Part shown: in pieces, positions 2,267-12,266 of the stretch
Position numbering within the stretch: position 1 is the first letter of the stretch
How the letters are laid out: each line of letters opens with the position of its first letter
DNA from: Fidelibacterota bacterium
GTDB lineage: Bacteria > Fidelibacterota > UBA8477
Direction: 5' to 3'
Assembly: GCA_021734045.1 (NCBI GenBank)
Contig: JAIPJR010000071.1
Coordinates: 1 to 12,266, forward strand
DNA length: 12,266 nt
The notes under the pieces: model-generated
Seen by the model: the letters and a program-made list of their open reading frames with translations, nothing else
Databases searched by the model: none
What the model was told of the DNA's origin: nothing
Position numbers and translations under genes: made by a program

Positions 2267-3529
2267 ATGGCATTATACGGTACGATCATTTTACCCGGGG
2301 ATAAATCCATCTCACACCGCGCCGTTATGCTGGCCTGTCTTTCCGAAGGACCCAGCGTTCTCCACAATGTGAATCGTGGCGCTGATGTGAAACAAACCGT
2401 TGCCATCTTGAAACGCTGTGGGATGGATGTTCAATGGCAGGAGGATACCGTCACGGTCCAGGGCGCCGGTAAAGCACCTTTTTTACAGCCCCAACTTCCG
2501 CTGGATTGCGGGAATTCCGGTACCACCGCCCGTTTGGGAATGGGATTGCTGGCCGGCTACCCGTTGCAGGTGACCTTCACCGGTGATGAATCCTTAAGTC
2601 AGCGCCCCATGAAACGGGTCATCGTTCCCCTGCGTCAAATGGGCGCCCGTATCTCAACACGCAATCAGGGCTATTTGCCGGTGATGCTCACCGGCGGCGA
2701 ATTATGGGGCATTCAGTATGACCTGCCTGTTCCCAGCGCCCAGGTAAAATCAGCCATTCTCCTGGCGGGATTGAATGCCCAGAGTGAAACCAGCATCACT
2801 TCGCCACTCCCCAGCCGTGACCACACCGAGCGCATGTTGAAACATCTTGGTGCTCCCATCACCAATGAGGGCAAGACCATCACCATAAAGCCATTGAAAA
2901 AACCACTGAAATACCTGGATTATACCATTCCCGGTGATATCTCAGGCGGTGCCTTTCTCATCACGGCCGCGCTCCTGGAGCCGGACTCGGAGGTGTTGCT
3001 TCAGGGTGTGTCGTTGAATCCCACCCGCACGGCATTTCTGGATGTCATCAAAGCCATGGGCGCACAGGTAAAGGTCACAAAAACCGGCGAGGTGGTGGGC
3101 GAACCGGTGGGCGATATTTTGTCGCGAACCAGCTCATTACATGGCATCACCGTTCCCCCGGAACAGATCCCCAATCTGCAGGACGAATTACCCTTAATTG
3201 CCCTGCTGGCGACCCAGGCCGAAGGGGAGACGGCAGTTACCGGCGCGGCAGAATTAAAAGTCAAGGAATCCGATCGCATTGAAGCGATTGTGACCAATCT
3301 CCGGAACTGGGGTGCGGACATTGAGGCAAAACCGGATGGATTCGTGGTGCGGGGACCCACGCCATTAACCGGTGGGCGAGTTCAGACCTACCATGACCAC
3401 CGGATCGCCATGATGATGAGCGTGGCGGGACGCATAGCAAAAGAGCCGACGAGGCTGGATGACAAAGATTGTATTGGCGTGAGTTTTCCGGGATTTCTCA
3501 CCATTCTGGATAAACTGGAGCATGACTGA
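2267..3529 (+). CDS. aroA: 3-phosphoshikimate 1-carboxyvinyltransferase (EPSP synthase)
   Basis: Transfers the enolpyruvyl group of phosphoenolpyruvate to shikimate-3-phosphate, giving EPSP and phosphate, the penultimate step to chorismate, in the cytoplasm. The 420-residue length is normal. Diagnostic segments are PGDKSISHRA (10-19, K13 and R18 contacting substrates), DCGNSGTTARL (80-90), QRPMKR (112-117), VPSAQVKSAILLAG (155-168), SRDHTERM (183-190), PGDISGGAF (222-230), NLQDELP (303-309, catalytic Asp306), KESDR (333-337, Glu334) and YHDHR (375-379). Glycine occupies the active-site position that is alanine in the CP4 enzyme, so the glyphosate-tolerant variant is not seen there. ATG 2267 is the only start: an in-frame TAA lies about 30 bases upstream, and GGAGG (2253-2257) sits nine bases before it. 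The N-terminus is therefore short, but complete through the substrate loop. aroE follows 98 bp downstream. Confidence 0.97.
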   Translation: MALYGTIILPGDKSISHRAVMLACLSEGPSVLHNVNRGADVKQTVAILKRCGMDVQWQEDTVTVQGAGKAPFLQPQLPLDCGNSGTTARLGMGLLAGYPLQVTFTGDESLSQRPMKRVIVPLRQMGARISTRNQGYLPVMLTGGELWGIQYDLPVPSAQVKSAILLAGLNAQSETSITSPLPSRDHTERMLKHLGAPITNEGKTITIKPLKKPLKYLDYTIPGDISGGAFLITAALLEPDSEVLLQGVSLNPTRTAFLDVIKAMGAQVKVTKTGEVVGEPVGDILSRTSSLHGITVPPEQIPNLQDELPLIALLATQAEGETAVTGAAELKVKESDRIEAIVTNLRNWGADIEAKPDGFVVRGPTPLTGGRVQTYHDHRIAMMMSVAGRIAKEPTRLDDKDCIGVSFPGFLTILDKLEHD

Positions 3530-3615
3530 GAAAGCGATTGAAATCAGCTGTTTCATCAACATTTCCAGCAGTTATTTTACCCGCCGCGATGGTTGAAATG
3601 ACCGCTTAAAGACGA

Positions 3616-3622
3616 AAAGGAG
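3616..3622 (+). promoter_or_regulatory. Strong ribosome binding site that fixes the GTG start of aroE
   Basis: AAAGGAG ends five bases before GTG 3628. This supports the unusual GTG start, after which the protein reads MRFGIIGNPLKQSVSP, the expected N-terminus of shikimate dehydrogenase. Confidence 0.8.
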
Positions 3623-3627
3623 TCGTT

Positions 3628-4497
3628 GTGAGATTTGGAATTATTGGTAACCCGTTGAAACAGAGCGTAAGTCCGTTTTTGATTCAATTGTTATTCGAAA
3701 AACTGGGGTACGAAGTAGCCTATAAAAAATATGAAGTACCGGGGCCGGACCTGCGCGAATGGATCCGTGGTCGCGCTGCCAAGGGACTGGATGGATTCAA
3801 TGTGACGATTCCACTCAAAACTGATATTATTCCGCTTTTAGACGATGTGAATGCCCGTAGTGCGCCTATGAAAGCAGTGAATGTAGTGCGCAAAACGGAT
3901 GGAAAATGGGTTGGATATAATACCGACTGGTATGGATTTGTGAAGGCAGTGGAAATCAATTCCGTGGACCTGAAGGACGCCAATGTGGTGATTCTGGGGG
4001 CCGGTGGTGCTGCACGGGCGATTGCCTACGGAGCTGCAAAACTGGGCGCTAAACGCATTACCATTGTCGCCCGCAGTTTACCGCACGGGGTTTTGCTTGT
4101 GAAGGATTTGAAACAGACGGTGGAACCGGCGATTATTGAAACCACGCCCTGGGACGCCAACGCCATTGAGCCCATTGAACAGGCGTACATGCTGGTAAAT
4201 GCCACACCCATCGGCATGAAGCCCAATATTCGCGAGACGCCATTGGATGCGGAGTTGCTGGAAAATGCCAGTGTGGTAATGGACGCCGTGTATAATCCCA
4301 TTAATACCCATCTTTTGGCGGATGCCTTAATGGCTGACTGCCAGACCATCCCGGGTTTGGATATGTTTCTCTATCAGGCCATGGCGGCAGTGGATGTGTG
4401 GCTGGGCGAGGAGCAGGACTGGAAAGCTGTTAACCTGGATGAAGTCCGGGAATTGACCCACAACAAGATCACCGGTTTTAAGCGAAAAGATCAGTAG
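3628..4497 (+). CDS. aroE: Shikimate dehydrogenase, NADP-dependent type
   Basis: Reduces 3-dehydroshikimate to shikimate with NADPH in the cytoplasm. The 289-residue length is normal. Substrate-domain motifs are SVSP (13-16, the shikimate-binding serines), NVTIPLK (58-64, K64 as catalytic lysine), AVNVV with N85, and YNTDWYG (97-103, D100 as catalytic partner). The Rossmann domain has GAGGAAR (124-130) and R149 after the second strand, suited to the NADP 2'-phosphate. Further motifs are NATPIGM (191-197), DAVYNP (219-224) and GLDMFLYQA (243-251, the conserved Gln250). SVSP replaces the commoner SLSP, a conservative change. Translation starts at GTG behind a strong ribosome site. It lies 98 bp downstream of aroA in the same direction and converges on the minus-strand beta-helix gene. 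Confidence 0.96.
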   Translation: MRFGIIGNPLKQSVSPFLIQLLFEKLGYEVAYKKYEVPGPDLREWIRGRAAKGLDGFNVTIPLKTDIIPLLDDVNARSAPMKAVNVVRKTDGKWVGYNTDWYGFVKAVEINSVDLKDANVVILGAGGAARAIAYGAAKLGAKRITIVARSLPHGVLLVKDLKQTVEPAIIETTPWDANAIEPIEQAYMLVNATPIGMKPNIRETPLDAELLENASVVMDAVYNPINTHLLADALMADCQTIPGLDMFLYQAMAAVDVWLGEEQDWKAVNLDEVRELTHNKITGFKRKDQ

Positions 4498-4556: not shown

Positions 4557-6857
4557 CTATTTCAACACCACAACCTTCTGCGTCCGTTCTAATCCCTCCG
4601 GTGTCTTAAGCCGAACAAAATAAACCCCGCTACCGTAACCCGACGCATTCCATGTCCGCTGATGCGGACCTTTTTCCAGAGTATCATCGTCTATCAGGTG
4701 CGCCACGACCCGCCCGGTCACATCGTAGATCACCAGACTCACCTGACTTTTACGTGCCAACTGGAAATCGATGTGAGTTATTGGATTAAACGGATTAGGG
4801 TAAGGCGCTGACAGGGTAAAGTCTTCCGGCACCTTTCCTTCCGGCACAGTACTCACCGGTCCGGTGTACTCATAAGCGCCCATATCCGGGGCAACGCCGG
4901 AATACTCATCCGGGGAGAGATTTACCAGTGTATCGCCTTCGTAGACAAAAAAGTCGGTGCCCCCATCAATGGCGGGGGAATTGGCGGACAGGGTGTAGGG
5001 ATTGACCGTATCTCCGGTAAAGAGTGGGTCCTGGTCCAGATTCCCATCCAGCCAGTGCAGGTCCAGTGAGCCATAGCCCCCCAATCCTTCCCACTGTCCT
5101 CCCTGGAAGATGGAATTCTTGACCGTCAGGATGGTGGGGGCCTCCGGATTTCCATAATCGGTGAACCAAAGTTGCCTGGGCACATTACCCCAGATAATGC
5201 TGTTCACAATAGTTAGATATGACTCACCCATGCTAATCGCACAGCCATCGATTGAGGTGTTATCGGCTATAGTGCAGTTGATTATGCGGACTTCAGGTGC
5301 ATATCCCCCACGCCAGATTGACATTGCCGACACGGGTTTGTCCACATGTGTAATGGGATTATTGATACCGGTGATCTGGACATTCTTAAAAGTTCTGGTC
5401 CCCGGCGATACCATGACGGAAGTGGAAAATCCGATGGCTTGATATTCATTGTCGGGCTGATAGAGTTGCGGGAGGACAGACTTTACCTGTACATTCTCAA
5501 CCAGAATATCGCGGGTATCTAATAAATCACCTACTCGGTTTTTGTTATTCAGAATTTCCATATTCGTGAGCTTCAGGCTGGTCTGGTTAGCCCAGGTCGA
5601 ATCATGTAATCCCCAACTGTAACTCAAAGTACTGAAGATAGCGGCATCGTTATCTTCAAAAATCATGTCGTCGTAGTGAGCCGCGATATTTCCCGTGGGT
5701 TCTACAACATAAAAGGCTGGTGATCTCACATATTCTCCGGCATGGGTTACTTTCATACAAGAAACCTTATAGTGTTGATCGTAACGTGCCATGAGCATGG
5801 ACGGGTGGGTATATTCATTGTCCAGAATGGTGGTGTCCCGGCCACTACCAGCCAGGTTTACATAGTCCCGGATATTCAATGGAAATATCTGACCACCGGA
5901 AGGGGTATAGCGTCCGGGTAACAGGTGCACCGTGCGGGGATTGGCCGAGTCGGCCTGGATCAGGGCTAATGCGTACTGAATGGTTTTTAACGGAGCGTCT
6001 GGTGATAAGCCAGTATTACTATCATTACCGGCCGGGCTGACATACAAATCATGGGGAACCGGATTCAACATGCCATGGTTGACAGTCACCTGAAAAAATT
6101 GGGGCACGTCGATAAAGTGGCGATCCCGGTATGCCACACTCCCCGTATCCAGGGGGATATTCAAGGTATTATAAGGTGGATCGATGCTATGAGAAACGAC
6201 CGCATAGATATCATTCCCAACACCACTATAATTATTATAGATGCTACAGCGATTGATGGGATCGAATTCGATATTAAAATCGGTTCTGAAATTTAATCCT
6301 CCGCTATAATAATGGCTCACATTGTCGTGAATAGAAAGCCCGGATAAATTTGGGCTTCCCAGGCTGGCAATTCCGGCACCGGCACCGGGACCTCCCAGGG
6401 TATTGTTTTTGATCGTACAGGCTGAAAGGGTTGGCGCCGTAGAAAATCCTACAAGGATGCCACCACCCGCCCATTGAATCCCGCCGTCCGGAATCACCGT
6501 ACCCGTCCCGTGTTGGATGGTCAATCCCACTAGTTGGGCCGCCCGACTTTCATTATTTTCAAAAGTCACAACGCGGCCATTCTGGTTCCCGTCCAGGATC
6601 GTGCTGCCAATGTAGGTATTGTCCTGAGTGAGCAGATAGCGGGAGCCCACCACCAGGTTCTTGCCTGAGAAGTTAATGTTCTCATAGTAGGTCCCCGGCT
6701 CAATCAGGATCGTATCACCACTCACCGCCTGATTAATAGCGGTCTGTACCGATGTAAAATCACCGGTGCTGTCGGTGGACACCGTGTAGGTGGTGGCCTG
6801 GAGGTTTATCGCCAGGATGAAGAGCAGAAGGAGAAAAAACCGGGTGATAATTGACAT
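4557..6857 (-). CDS. Secreted right-handed beta-helix (DUF1565-like) protein with T9SS type A sorting domain
   Basis: A 766-residue exported protein. The signal peptide is residues 1-21 (hydrophobic 7-17, cleavage after LQA). A first pectate-lyase-like beta-helix begins at about 24-60 (DFTSVQTAINQAVSGDTI, EPGTYYENI) and runs through repeated short strands to about 230. A second helix opens with a DUF1565-type cap at about 271-345 (LYVSPAGNDSNTGLSPDAPL, TIQYAL, LLPGRYTP) and continues to about 610. SPAIDGGTDFF...APDMGAYEY (627-664) is the usual closing segment of such helices. Residues about 680-766 form the T9SS type A sorting domain (YPNPFNP 686-692, VYFVRL 745-750, final Lys). No catalytic polysaccharide-lyase residues could be pinned down, so substrate binding, adhesion or glycan cleavage are all possible. 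ATG follows GAGGA (6868-6872) by ten bases. It lies 99 bp downstream of the other T9SS cargo gene on the same strand. Confidence 0.88.
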   Translation of the reverse strand: MSIITRFFLLLLFILAINLQATTYTVSTDSTGDFTSVQTAINQAVSGDTILIEPGTYYENINFSGKNLVVGSRYLLTQDNTYIGSTILDGNQNGRVVTFENNESRAAQLVGLTIQHGTGTVIPDGGIQWAGGGILVGFSTAPTLSACTIKNNTLGGPGAGAGIASLGSPNLSGLSIHDNVSHYYSGGLNFRTDFNIEFDPINRCSIYNNYSGVGNDIYAVVSHSIDPPYNTLNIPLDTGSVAYRDRHFIDVPQFFQVTVNHGMLNPVPHDLYVSPAGNDSNTGLSPDAPLKTIQYALALIQADSANPRTVHLLPGRYTPSGGQIFPLNIRDYVNLAGSGRDTTILDNEYTHPSMLMARYDQHYKVSCMKVTHAGEYVRSPAFYVVEPTGNIAAHYDDMIFEDNDAAIFSTLSYSWGLHDSTWANQTSLKLTNMEILNNKNRVGDLLDTRDILVENVQVKSVLPQLYQPDNEYQAIGFSTSVMVSPGTRTFKNVQITGINNPITHVDKPVSAMSIWRGGYAPEVRIINCTIADNTSIDGCAISMGESYLTIVNSIIWGNVPRQLWFTDYGNPEAPTILTVKNSIFQGGQWEGLGGYGSLDLHWLDGNLDQDPLFTGDTVNPYTLSANSPAIDGGTDFFVYEGDTLVNLSPDEYSGVAPDMGAYEYTGPVSTVPEGKVPEDFTLSAPYPNPFNPITHIDFQLARKSQVSLVIYDVTGRVVAHLIDDDTLEKGPHQRTWNASGYGSGVYFVRLKTPEGLERTQKVVVLK

Positions 6858-6900
6858 CTTTTAATTTTCCTCGTTGTGTGGATATCGTTTTGTCTCAAGA

Positions 6901-6938
6901 CCCAACCGCCCATTGGGATTATGAGCGGTTGAGTTTTT
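6901..6938 (+). terminator. Strong intrinsic terminator in plus orientation, between two minus-strand genes
   Basis: Positions 6901-6913 and 6921-6933 form a 13-pair stem (eleven Watson-Crick and two A-C mismatches when read as plus RNA; two G-U wobbles in minus RNA) around a 7-base loop, with a perfect core CAACCGC/GCGGTTG. TTTTT (6934-6938) follows on the plus strand. On the minus strand the hairpin is followed by TCTTGAGACA, without a T-run. It could therefore stop antisense transcripts arriving from the aroE side. As a minus-strand structure it may still stabilise the 3' end of the amidotransferase mRNA. Confidence 0.6.
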
Positions 6939-6956
6939 ATTGATAGATAAAAGAAT

Positions 6957-9155
6957 CTATTTCATGAGGATGATCTTACGCGTTTCGTGTTTCTGTGCCG
7001 TTGACAGCCTGACGAAATAGAGTCCCGAGGGTCGGGTTGACGCATCCCAGTTAATGCGGTGGTTCCCCGATTCCAGACGACCGGTATTGAGTATTTGTAT
7101 TTCCCGTCCCATGAGATCATACACCGTCAGCGTCACCTGGCCGGCCGAGACCAGATTAAACTGGATGGTGGTACTGGGATTAAAGGGATTGGGATATGAG
7201 CTAAGATGTAACTTAAAATCCGTGGGGACATTTTCTGCACCATCAAAATCGAGTGTATAATATTCCGTACCCCCAGGTACTGTATTTCGAGATATTCTTG
7301 ACGGCTTGAACGCTTCTTTTAGCGCCTGTGGAGATCCGGGTGATCTTTTTGCCAACACATCTGATCTAATTATTTGGAGTGTGGCATCTTCAATATTTGC
7401 GTTACCGTTATATGCTTGCATTTTTACTTCAGCACCCGTTACCGGTTCAGCAGCAATACAGGTCTCACCGATAAAAAGCCCAACTTCCTGTGCCGTTTGA
7501 GGGTTATCAATGTTTTCGATAATTACTGGAGTATAGTCTGGTAATTCCTGCACATTAAAGGATGTCTGAGCCGGTTTAAAATCGGGAAGTTTGCCCAAAA
7601 GTAAGGTCTCTTCCCACTGAAGCATAACATCTTCGCTCGCAGTTAATTCATACATCGATCCGTAATCAAATCTAACACAAGGTGGATTAATACAGCCGGT
7701 ACTCCACTTAACGACCCAATTGCCATTCTGGTTAATCATGAACCAATGTTGACTTTTAATTGCTGTTAATACATCCAATACCTCTTGTGGTAGGGCATCC
7801 TCCGGGGCTTGGCTTCCCGGTAAGGTATAGGGTACCCAGTTAACACCGGAGTGAAGTTGAATAGGGGTCGTTGGATCAACCAAGTATCCAGATAGAGCTA
7901 AATTGTATTCCGGACTTTCAGTACTCATCGCAACTTTATAACCCTTGATACTGTTCATATTAAACGAAGGCCAGTTTCCATTAGCAAGATCATAATCAAT
8001 CACGGGAAATTGACCATTATCTTCGTATTGAACGCTCAAAGCATCCGGCGCCAGATCGCCCAGCACATCGGTGATGTCCGTTCCATTGTTGTTCGGCAGG
8101 ATCGGGAAGCCGACCCAATTGTATTGGCTTGAAAAGTGTTTTATATCAACATCTGGTAGGTTATGAAAATCGGTAAGACTAACAACGTTCCCCCCGCGAG
8201 GGAGATAGACTAGCTCATCATCAATCATTTCGATCCAGTCTTCAGCTGTATCATCGGGTGGTTCTGACATAACTGCTTTCATTCCTACCGGCGCTTCGGT
8301 GCCTCCAGGATAAGAATAAATACCACTTGTACTACTCCAGTATAGGGTATAATTGTCTCCATCTGTATCATTACGATAATTTCTATAAGCCCAGATCGCG
8401 TCGCCGTCGGAAAATGTAAAATTTAAATTACTTTGATTTGTGCTATTCTTAAACGTAGAGTTGCTCAAGGCTGCATGGATACCTTTTAGCACATCATAGC
8501 CATTTTCTTGAATGTTTTTCATGATCCACTTGAAGTAGATTTCTGAATCCACAACATTGTCAAGTGCATGAGGATCAAATTCATCCCACCAAATGCCTCC
8601 ACATCCATCAACACCGTTAAAAGTTTCAAGACCGCCGTTATCAAATAACCATTCATATCCAATGAGGTTAACGAGCCACTGTTTACTCGGCAGACCTCCA
8701 TTGTGTGCAAATGTGTAGGTTTTGGGGGCACCATTTGTCCCTTTTTCCCATACATATGGATGCGGATCTGGTACCGTAGTACATCCTGAAGACGCATTCC
8801 TAATATGCCCCATAATCAGAGTCACTTGTGCATCATCTATTTCAAGAATGTCTTCGCAGTATCGCCACAATTTCTTCGGTGCTGAAATATTTGCAGCACG
8901 GTTACCCCTATAAACATCTATTCCAAAAGGAGTATAAGTTACAATACCCCACCCTGAGGGATTTGATGCACCAAGCTGCTCTAATGCTGTTCCTTGCTTA
9001 TAAATAAAGTAATAGTTATTACACTCTGGCCGGGTATCATTGAGAGTAAATTTTTTATCCGATAAAACGCTCCATAACCGGCACGCATCAAGTTGTTTCG
9101 GTAGATAGAACATTGTTAGAATAGCGCTAAATGCTATAAATGATTTCAATTTCAC
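6957..9155 (-). CDS. Secreted class II glutamine amidotransferase-like protein with T9SS type A sorting domain
   Basis: A 732-residue exported protein. Residues 1-24 are a signal peptide and C25 directly follows A24. From C25 to about 320 it matches the YafJ/EgtC-type class II glutamine amidotransferase fold (N-terminal-nucleophile hydrolase). Motifs are CRLW (25-28, Cys nucleophile), SGWGI (67-71), GHIRNASSG (116-124, Arg119 for the glutamine carboxylate), TFAHNGG (148-154, Asn152/Gly153 oxyanion hole), VDSEIYF (202-208), DGDAIWAYR (250-258) and MSEPPDD (296-302). Residues about 340-520 hold two related modules starting NWVGFPILP (346) and NWVPYTLP (439). Residues about 645-732 are the T9SS sorting domain (YPNPFNP 654-660, GLYFVRL 711-717). 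The family releases ammonia from glutamine or cleaves gamma-glutamyl amides; the extracellular substrate here is unknown. The GTG start has AAGGAG (9163-9168) seven bases upstream. The 8341-8520 part is notably AT-rich. Confidence 0.88.
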   Translation of the reverse strand: MKLKSFIAFSAILTMFYLPKQLDACRLWSVLSDKKFTLNDTRPECNNYYFIYKQGTALEQLGASNPSGWGIVTYTPFGIDVYRGNRAANISAPKKLWRYCEDILEIDDAQVTLIMGHIRNASSGCTTVPDPHPYVWEKGTNGAPKTYTFAHNGGLPSKQWLVNLIGYEWLFDNGGLETFNGVDGCGGIWWDEFDPHALDNVVDSEIYFKWIMKNIQENGYDVLKGIHAALSNSTFKNSTNQSNLNFTFSDGDAIWAYRNYRNDTDGDNYTLYWSSTSGIYSYPGGTEAPVGMKAVMSEPPDDTAEDWIEMIDDELVYLPRGGNVVSLTDFHNLPDVDIKHFSSQYNWVGFPILPNNNGTDITDVLGDLAPDALSVQYEDNGQFPVIDYDLANGNWPSFNMNSIKGYKVAMSTESPEYNLALSGYLVDPTTPIQLHSGVNWVPYTLPGSQAPEDALPQEVLDVLTAIKSQHWFMINQNGNWVVKWSTGCINPPCVRFDYGSMYELTASEDVMLQWEETLLLGKLPDFKPAQTSFNVQELPDYTPVIIENIDNPQTAQEVGLFIGETCIAAEPVTGAEVKMQAYNGNANIEDATLQIIRSDVLAKRSPGSPQALKEAFKPSRISRNTVPGGTEYYTLDFDGAENVPTDFKLHLSSYPNPFNPSTTIQFNLVSAGQVTLTVYDLMGREIQILNTGRLESGNHRINWDASTRPSGLYFVRLSTAQKHETRKIILMK

Positions 9156-9523: not shown

Positions 9524-11515
9524 ATGTCAATCATCGTCAGGGACACCTTGAAAAAAATCCAATTGCCCGGAGTGGTGGTCATCGCGCTGTACTTCACCGC
9601 AATCATGTTTCTGTTTTTGGTCTGGCGCGGTCTCTGGATCTGGCAGTTGCGGGAATATACAGCCACTCTGGAAACAGGACTCGTGTTCCGTGCTTTCGGT
9701 GTTGCTTTGCGATTGGACATGGTGGTGGCAGCCATTTTAACAGCTCCGGTATTGGTGATCGGTTTCATTCCGGGGAGCTTAAAACGCGAATGGGGACGGC
9801 AGGCAGTTTTGATCTGGACCGCGATGACAGGATTGTTGATCGGTACCGCCATGATTGTGGATATCGAATATTTTAGGGAATTCGATACCCATATCAATTT
9901 GATGGTAACGCAATACGGCGGCGGAACACAGGAAATCTGGGGCTTCTTTTGGGCATCATATCCTCTGGTTCGATATTTTCTGTTACTGATGGGGCTGACC
10001 GGGTTGTGGTGGTTAGGAATTACCCGACTCCTTCAGCGTATTCACGTTCAAGCTGCCAAACCACGATGGCTACCCATTCCAGCATTTTTACTGACACTGG
10101 CTCTATTGGTTATTGCCGGGAGAGGAGGGTTGCAGGAGCGGCCGGTGAATTGGGGCAATGCCATTTTCAGCAAAAACCACTTCGCCAATCAGATTGCCTT
10201 AAACCCGCTTTATTTCTTTGGGCGGAGTGTGGCTCAGTTGGCCGACGCGCGCAAGCTGAATGAAACCCTAAACTTTATGTCGCCGGATTCTGCTTGGCAA
10301 ATAACAGGTGAATTAGTTCGGGGAACGGATGAATACAGTGTTGACGCGAAAATTCCCCTGCGGCGTGTTCGTGCCGCTACCGGATCGCTTCGTCGACCCC
10401 ATGTGGTGCTGGTCATTCTGGAGACCTTTGCCGGTGAATATTGTGGTTACCTGAATCCTCAATATGCGGATATCACCCCACATCTGGATGAAATTGCCGC
10501 GCAGGGGTTGACCTTTCAGCGCTGCTTCGCCAATGGCCATCGTACTGCGCATGGCCTGGGGGCGATACTCTGTTCCTGGCCCAATCTGCCCGGGGCACCT
10601 GTCATCTATCGCGTGGAGGCTCAGCGCGAGATGCCCACGGCCGCCAGTATCCTGTCCCGACTTGGATTCGAGACCACGTTTCTCTATGGTGGTGATGTGG
10701 GTTTTGACAACATGGGTGGATTTTTTTATGCCAACGGTTACGACCGAATACTGGATAAATCAGCTTTTCCCAGGGAGACACCGGCAACCATGTGGGGTGT
10801 TTATGATGAATATTTGTTCGATCGTACCCTGGCGATCCTGGATACTGCCTCAACCCCACAATTTCTGACCGTGCTGACGGTTTCAAATCACCAGCCCTGG
10901 ACGCTGCCAAAACATCGGGAAGTCCAGGTTGCGCCCTATGAAAATCCGGATCATCCCAATGCTGACATGCTACGAACCATGCGCTATGTGGATCTTTCTA
11001 TTGGTGAGTTCCTGAAGAGTGCCCAATCCCGTTCCTGGTTTGATTCAACACTGTTTGTCTTTGTAAGCGATCACGGGCGGACATTACACCAGGGGCCATT
11101 TCACGATCCCAGAAATCACCGGATTGTAGGGCTGTTTTACGGGCCAAAATTACTGGGTGCACCAACCCAGGTGACCACCGTGACCAGTCAGGTGGATATT
11201 TTACCGACTATTCTGGGCGTGCTCAACGATTCCAGTGTCCATACCCTGTGGGGGCGCAATCGCCGCTTGCCCGGACCCGATTACGCCGGTATGTTGCGCA
11301 ATGAACGCTTCGATTGGTACACGGATGGCTATTTCTATGAAGAGATTTTAGGCGAAAATGGCCGTCTTTATCAATATGGCGACGACTGGAATTCGACCAG
11401 TGAAGACGTCACGGAATCGAACCCTGAAATTTATCAGCAATTACGACATCAGGCACATGGGTACCTCCAGGCAGCCTATTTCGGTTTTGAGCAGCGCGTT
11501 TTTACTGGTTATTAA
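9524..11515 (+). CDS. LtaS/OpgB-like membrane phosphoglycerol (or phosphoethanolamine) transferase
   Basis: A 663-residue member of the alkaline-phosphatase superfamily, LtaS type. Five predicted transmembrane helices (about 15-36, 56-83, 94-113, 147-168, 183-200) are followed by a linker containing the family-like RPVNWGN...NQIALNPLYFF (206-232) and an extracytoplasmic sulfatase-fold domain (about 291-580). By comparison with LtaS, E300 (VILETF), T341 (NGHRTAHG, the nucleophile), D516 and H517 (VSDHG) are metal/catalytic residues and H456 (SNHQPW) a substrate contact; FLYGGDVGFDNMGGFF (386-401) is also typical. Family members move glycerol-phosphate or phosphoethanolamine from a lipid onto envelope polymers or periplasmic glucans. 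A didermic host makes lipoteichoic acid unlikely. ATG 9524 is the first start after an in-frame TGA about 18 bases upstream, and no Shine-Dalgarno is close. aroC follows after 56 bp. Confidence 0.9.
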   Translation: MSIIVRDTLKKIQLPGVVVIALYFTAIMFLFLVWRGLWIWQLREYTATLETGLVFRAFGVALRLDMVVAAILTAPVLVIGFIPGSLKREWGRQAVLIWTAMTGLLIGTAMIVDIEYFREFDTHINLMVTQYGGGTQEIWGFFWASYPLVRYFLLLMGLTGLWWLGITRLLQRIHVQAAKPRWLPIPAFLLTLALLVIAGRGGLQERPVNWGNAIFSKNHFANQIALNPLYFFGRSVAQLADARKLNETLNFMSPDSAWQITGELVRGTDEYSVDAKIPLRRVRAATGSLRRPHVVLVILETFAGEYCGYLNPQYADITPHLDEIAAQGLTFQRCFANGHRTAHGLGAILCSWPNLPGAPVIYRVEAQREMPTAASILSRLGFETTFLYGGDVGFDNMGGFFYANGYDRILDKSAFPRETPATMWGVYDEYLFDRTLAILDTASTPQFLTVLTVSNHQPWTLPKHREVQVAPYENPDHPNADMLRTMRYVDLSIGEFLKSAQSRSWFDSTLFVFVSDHGRTLHQGPFHDPRNHRIVGLFYGPKLLGAPTQVTTVTSQVDILPTILGVLNDSSVHTLWGRNRRLPGPDYAGMLRNERFDWYTDGYFYEEILGENGRLYQYGDDWNSTSEDVTESNPEIYQQLRHQAHGYLQAAYFGFEQRVFTGY

Positions 11516-11571: not shown

Positions 11572-12266
11572 ATGAACATGTTAACACGACTCAAATTTTT
11601 AACAGCAGGTGAATCACACGGACCCGGGTTGACGGGGATTATTGAGGGCTTACCGGCGGGTATTCCACTCAGGGTTGCTGATCTTCGGGCCGAACTCAAA
11701 CGCCGCCAGCAGGGTGTGGGTCGCGGCAAGCGGATGCAGATTGAAGACGAACAGGTGGAAATTCACAGTGGTGTGCGCTACGGAAAAACCCTGGGGTCGC
11801 CAGTGTCGCTCTGGTTGCCGAATCGCGACTGGAAAAACTGGCAGAAGCAGATGAAGATTGAAGCCAGTGATGATCCCGCCACACCGGTGACGTTACCTCG
11901 ACCGGGACACGCTGATCTGGCTGGCGCTTTGAAATACGATACCGATGATATTCGCAACATCCTGGAGCGGGCATCGGCCCGGGAAACGGCGATGCGGGTA
12001 GCGTTGGGCGCGACTGCCAAGCGCTTTCTGGAAGAATTGGGAATCCGCATCACCAGTCAGGTCGTTCAAATCGGGAAGGTTGCGGCACGGCTGAATCCGG
12101 TTACACCCGAGACAGATTTAGCGGAACTGGAACGGCAGGTTGATGTTTCGCTGGTGCGCTGTCCGGATGAAAAAACCACCCGGCTCATGGTGGCGGAGAT
12201 CGAGGGCGCCGGCGCGGAAGGGGATTCCGTAGGTGGGCGATTCGAAGTCATTGCCAGTGGATTACC
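11572..12266 (+). CDS. aroC: Chorismate synthase, N-terminal 231 residues (3' end outside window)
   Basis: Converts EPSP to chorismate by anti-1,4-elimination of phosphate, needing reduced FMN; last step of the shikimate pathway. The visible part matches the family throughout: FLTAGESHGPGLTGIIEGLP (9-28, His16 of the first signature), RRQQGVGRGKRM (residues about 44-55), HSGVRYGKTLGSPVSLWL and NRDWKNW, RPGHADLAGALKYD, then DIRNILERASARETA-type FMN-site residues. The frame is open to the window edge, about 60% of a normal-length protein. The start is ambiguous: ATG 11572 and ATG 11578 are two codons apart. GAG (11568-11570) sits one base before the first but seven before the second, so 11578 may be the true start. 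It lies 56 bp after the LtaS-like gene on the same strand; no terminator is seen between them, so readthrough is possible. Confidence 0.95.
   Translation, partial: MNMLTRLKFLTAGESHGPGLTGIIEGLPAGIPLRVADLRAELKRRQQGVGRGKRMQIEDEQVEIHSGVRYGKTLGSPVSLWLPNRDWKNWQKQMKIEASDDPATPVTLPRPGHADLAGALKYDTDDIRNILERASARETAMRVALGATAKRFLEELGIRITSQVVQIGKVAARLNPVTPETDLAELERQVDVSLVRCPDEKTTRLMVAEIEGAGAEGDSVGGRFEVIASGL

Follow-up and report, generated by a model that had tools for sequence, protein, structure and literature searches.

An exported glutamine-amidotransferase-like protein with a T9SS tail whose catalytic cysteine may be unmasked by removal of the signal peptide

The window analysed here, a stretch of 12,266 nucleotides from a Fidelibacterota bacterium (contig JAIPJR010000071.1), carries on its minus strand a gene (6957..9155) encoding a 732-residue exported class II glutamine-amidotransferase-like protein that ends in a T9SS tail. 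The gene starts with a GTG codon, just ahead of which lies a Shine-Dalgarno sequence, AGAAGGAG, making a good ribosome site. Residues 1-24, MKLKSFIAFSAILTMFYLPKQLDA (9084..9155), form a Sec/SPI-type signal peptide with a polar c-region, PKQLDA, and are followed by the codon for Cys25 (9081..9083), the presumed N-terminal nucleophile and first residue (C1) of the mature chain, as judged from the sequence, the comparison of homologues and a structural model. From there the chain runs through C25 RLWSV, SGWG, GHIR (R119), HPY, FAHNGG (N152/G153), DSE (D203-E205), FSDG and MSEP. Translation of the minus-strand reading frame thus agrees with the original prediction, which had described a cysteine directly after the signal peptide and intact SGWG, GHIR, AHNGG, DSE and SEP motifs. 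That prediction had covered positions 8250-9155. The amidotransferase part extends as a modelled Ntn hydrolase domain holding R119, N152, G153 and D203 from 9083 to about 8124, and the reading frame continues past that interval to 6957. Beyond the domain lie a middle region of about 310 residues with no Pfam match (7197..8123), which is found in the long form of the protein of about 730 residues, and the C-terminal sorting domain (6957..7196). The amidotransferase domain was recognised by the Pfam profile GATase_4 well above its curated cut-off (43.3 bits against 23), which places it among class II glutamine amidotransferases.

The tail, likewise foreseen, was recognised by both Por_Secre_tail (44.4 bits, cut-off 27) and TIGR04183 (49.4 bits), and the same genome, assigned through its relatives to Candidatus Neomarinimicrobiota, encodes PorU (694.9 bits), SprA (774 bits, summed) and 62 sorting tails. 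With a C-terminal sorting domain and genomic machinery both present, the 732-residue protein has the features of T9SS type A cargo. Directly downstream, on the same strand, is a gene that the original prediction had missed (4557..6857), encoding a 766-residue exported right-handed beta-helix protein (Beta_helix, DUF1565) with a signal peptide (NLQA/TTY) and a T9SS tail of its own. Between the two T9SS genes (6858-6956) there is a hairpin-like inverted repeat, CAACCGC...GCGGTTG, with no T-run after it, which could affect their coupled expression. On either side of the pair, at 2267-4497 and 11572-12264, lie genes of the shikimate pathway (aroA-, aroE- and aroC-like, identified by eye), and a gene for a sulfatase-family membrane protein (9524-11515) also falls between them.

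An AlphaFold2 model of the mature domain (pLDDT 90.9, pTM 0.91) matched EgtC best, in both its glutamine-bound and its apo structures (4zfj/4zfk; Z 21.9, rmsd 2.2 across 213 residues), with GlmS (Z 21.8) and PurF (Z 21.4-21.6) close behind, and all of these alignments start at model residue 1, set against the catalytic-cysteine end. In this comparison, which had been proposed as a check, the fold and the set of active-site residues are preserved. In mature numbering, used from here on, H93, R95, G100, H108, H127, G129 and D179 are kept in the Cys, Ser, acidic, Pro and cytosolic groups of relatives, gaps and X aside, and N128 is conserved alongside R95, G129 and D179. The glutamate-binding and oxyanion positions of the family are R95, S98/S99, N128/G129 and D179; the mature domain has the Ntn fold together with these residues.

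The position of the nucleophile was then compared across relatives drawn from 245 Neomarinimicrobiota genomes, 56 of which gave a match, from further named genome contigs and from 124 genomes of Cloacimonadota, 51 of which did. For the genome contigs, a scan with the single protein returned zero relatives and a first alignment was too diverse as a query, while a narrower alignment succeeded; no phage relatives of the amidotransferase were found. In the first set, comprising 70 distinct exported N-termini, the nucleophile (63 Cys, 7 Ser) stood at the signal-peptide end in all, preceded at -1 by A in 44, P in 14, G in 6, D in 3, E in 2 and S in 1. The 31 Cloacimonadota N-termini that were read, after near-duplicates had been dropped by eye, all had Cys, with A (13), D (8), E (8), G (1) or C (1) before it. 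As three of these overlap with the first set, the two combine to 98 N-termini, in which the nucleophile, Cys in 91 and Ser in 7, lies 0-2 residues from the signal-peptide end. Because every readable exported relative has Cys or Ser within two residues of this point, the position of Cys25 is not a matter of chance. Cytosolic relatives from Actinomycetota and Alphaproteobacteria, on the other hand, start with Met-Cys in 25 of 25 cases, so that each branch appears to expose the same residue by its own route, through removal of methionine in the cytosolic relatives and through export in the others.

At the window site, L at -3, A at -1 and the polar c-region are compatible with signal peptidase I cleavage at A24/C25; Leu at -3 of such sites is allowed, if not the commonest residue. 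The comparative pattern is strong, and Cys25 would then probably be the first residue of the mature chain. The question whether a cleavage site always adjoins the Cys had a less uniform answer. While the nucleophile lies 0-2 residues from the signal-peptide end in 98 of 98 cases, residue -1 is A, G, S or C in 65, P in 14, and D or E in 19. Pro at -1 (LFPC, LYPC) belongs mainly to one clade of short forms; Asp or Glu (FADC, FAEC, YADC) is common in Cloacimonadota (16/31) and recurs in three other loci (L009, L131 and L163). With P, D or E at -1 in 33 of 98 N-termini, signal peptidase I is no full explanation for the family: it would not plausibly leave a free Cys by itself in these relatives, which need another cutter or self-processing. 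In those with an acidic residue it would be expected to cut before that residue, leaving one or two residues for which self-removal would be the likeliest route. The idea of unmasking by export is thus backed by the contrast between exported and Met-Cys cytosolic proteins, by the fold and by the active-site residues, but not as a universal rule.

The natural Ser variants go beyond what had been predicted. A tree computed with the nucleophile column left out requires five changes between Cys and Ser, as many as its starred branches force, and rejects a single clade of Ser members; the count alone does not fix the direction of each change. All seven Ser members retain H93, R95, S/T98, G100, H108, H127, N128, G129, D179, S180 and E181 (7/7 at each). 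In these relatives the amidase activity could be changed or lost through the Ser. Both kinds can occur in one genome: one locus (L159; G242:C171:1-9853) has two tandem enzyme/partner pairs, one with Cys (ALA/CRMW) and one with Ser (VFA/SRLF), and another genome (G239) has the two kinds on separate contigs.

Turning to the beta-helix protein, we found a relative of it immediately downstream of the long-form enzyme in 33 of the 35 cases that could be read, from three phyla (Neomarinimicrobiota, Cloacimonadota and Delongbacteria). This count is made up of 17/17 cases first examined, one in which the enzyme is cut by a contig end, 14 of another 16 Cloacimonadota loci whose flanks could be read and one additional locus (L228); it leaves out two Cloacimonadota loci, one unreadable (L216) and one repeating another (L225, a repeat of L083). 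The two exceptions (L213 and L218) are long-form enzymes without a partner. Alignments among the partner relatives span the whole protein or most of it, with 29-45% identity for the majority of pairs and 75% for two from one genome. Strong partner matches occurred in 12 of the 245 Neomarinimicrobiota genomes, and the only clear orphan among those with a readable upstream side is a full-length partner with no adjoining enzyme (G225, L168:3774-6077), a weaker and larger beta-helix relative (in L170) being left out of this count. Outside the paired loci, two forms of about 1,030 residues (L226, L227) had no partner within the 1.3-1.7 kb fetched, and in two others (L119, L128) the enzyme stands alone. 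In one locus (L089:4917-8171) a fusion joins an enzyme domain of the Ser type to beta-helix segments recognised by the partner model (E 1.9e-103 over several segments), and no stand-alone partner gene lies alongside; since beta-helices cross-match easily, the fusion supports the pairing and does not prove it. The conserved neighbours of the short forms (an RpoD-type sigma factor downstream and a PorV-like gene upstream, by eye) suggest synteny of the chromosome and not a pathway.

At pLDDT 70.5, the structural model of the partner is of intermediate quality. Among the many beta-helices that the second domain resembles, carbohydrate-active ones included, is pectate lyase 9 (1ru4, Z 26.6); the domain has no Lys, Arg, Asp or Glu among the columns invariant in nine sequences. 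As the likeness of fold is generic and no charged residue is invariant in this domain, an active lyase was set aside, and the partner does not look like an enzyme itself. Most likely it would serve as a non-catalytic binding or scaffold protein.

Taken together, these data favour, at a probability of roughly 0.62, an exported Ntn amidohydrolase of the YafJ/EgtC branch that is of gamma-glutamyl or glutamine type, is unmasked by removal of its signal peptide and acts with a beta-helix partner. The precursor would be made with Cys25 inside the chain. Sec export and a cut after Ala24 would make it the first residue, providing the free thiol and the free amino group on which the mechanism depends, and T9SS would then take the enzyme to the surface or outside. 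There it would probably hydrolyse the amide of glutamine or of gamma-glutamyl compounds, the long form working jointly with the beta-helix T9SS protein encoded just downstream. Amide hydrolysis is proposed because R95, S98/S99, N128/G129 and D179 fall on the positions by which the family binds glutamate and stabilises the oxyanion, and because the protein has no attached synthetase domain. The removal of a gamma-glutamyl group by EgtC involves no synthetase partner; the window protein likewise lacks a synthetase, which makes a gamma-glutamyl/glutamine hydrolase the best guess, with specificity argued from conserved residues. We infer the cleavage site, the activity, the substrate and the role of the partner in this protein.

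Other routes to, or fates of, the same cysteine deserve comparison. Signal peptidase I might cut near the Cys and the remainder be trimmed by self-removal (an N-to-S acyl shift) or by an aminopeptidase. Class II amidotransferases and other Ntn hydrolases can shed propeptides autocatalytically, the precursors of glycosylasparaginase and taspase have an Asp just before the nucleophile, and the A-D-C and A-E-C N-termini of Cloacimonadota, like the D or E at -1 in the three other loci, would fit such a scheme. In the window protein, however, zero residues separate LDA from Cys25, so a second step is not needed and two-step unmasking is unlikely here. It had also been suggested that LDAC could read as a poor lipobox, in which case signal peptidase II would cut A24/C25 and Cys25 would be lipidated, leaving the domain as a surface-anchored pseudoenzyme. 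The Cys does follow a hydrophobic stretch immediately, and LSAC and LIAC in some relatives resemble loose lipoboxes. When a PROSITE-type lipobox pattern (PS51257) was applied, it fitted 7 of the 63 Cys members and failed in the other 56, the window protein among them: FYLPKQLDAC lies outside the pattern, with D at -2 and K at -5 in PKQLDAC. In addition, some relatives have Ser here, a residue that is not lipidated in this way, and the tree counts about five Cys/Ser changes without loss of the active site; the protein has a T9SS tail in any case; and strand 1 of the model begins at residue 2, leaving no room for a lipid linker. Lipidation is consequently disfavoured, and we give it very little chance of being correct.

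A different chemistry would be an exported amidotransferase or gamma-glutamyl transferase, in which an acceptor bound by the beta-helix partner, and not water, receives the thioester. What class II enzymes usually hand on is ammonia, and the tight pairing in three phyla and the one natural fusion would suit such a role. Against it, no acceptor site and no synthetase domain were recognised, and the partner's second domain, while like that of many carbohydrate-active beta-helices, lacks invariant Lys, Arg, Asp or Glu, so that we hold a transferase to be improbable. Beyond the preferred reading of an exported hydrolase unmasked by removal of its signal peptide, we tentatively suggest a possible wider picture: a two-gene surface system of Neomarinimicrobiota, Cloacimonadota and Delongbacteria that would combine activation by export only, T9SS delivery with a beta-helix partner, repeated switching between Cys and Ser and, in some lineages, a self-removed one-residue acidic propeptide.

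An exported enzyme of this kind would put a core nitrogen-metabolism fold on the outside of uncultured bacteria from marine and anaerobic settings. Gamma-glutamyl compounds or other amides may there be its source of freed glutamate or ammonia. The family offers a testable case of export as an activation step, with Met-Cys cytosolic, Ser and A-D-C relatives as natural controls, and the conserved beta-helix neighbour is a first lead on the surface use of such an enzyme.

Unmasking by export is probably not new among Cys-Ntn hydrolases in general. Gram-negative penicillin V acylases seem to have their nucleophile unmasked by signal-peptide removal, and a choloylglycine-hydrolase relative in the phylum that the window comes from (L172, G011:C71) has its Cys right after the signal peptide (LPLFA/CTSF). 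The exported penicillin V acylase/choloylglycine hydrolase family (PF02275) shares with the window protein a catalytic Cys directly after the signal peptide but is a separate Cys-Ntn family; PF02275 was absent among the Pfam matches of the window protein, and its own genome gave no match at 1e-10. The literature searched held no explicit statement of a precedent for signal-peptide unmasking, nothing direct on an exported class II amidotransferase or on signal-peptide cleavage in Ntn hydrolases, and no description of an amidotransferase as T9SS cargo; nor was the combination of export unmasking in the amidotransferase branch, T9SS delivery and a beta-helix partner found described there. With T9SS cargo of Bacteroidota the protein shares a signal peptide and a type A C-terminal sorting domain, PorU and SprA being present. 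Class II enzymes that shed a propeptide by themselves, B. subtilis PurF among them (1ao0, 1gph; Z 18.0-18.1), have the same fold and the same need for a free N-terminal Cys, but carry an attached synthetase domain and lose the propeptide in the cytoplasm. Closest are EgtC and YafJ/GATase_4 (PF13230; 4zfj-4zfl, 1te5, 3mdn), which share the fold, the order of motifs, the N-terminal Cys and a stand-alone domain without a synthetase, although the protein is no EgtC of the ergothioneine pathway, scoring 24.5 bits with the equivalog TIGR03442, far short of the cut-off of 218.65. Whereas the cytosolic relatives that were found begin with Met-Cys, the window protein begins with a signal peptide; it also has additional modules towards its C-terminus, the T9SS tail and the beta-helix partner.
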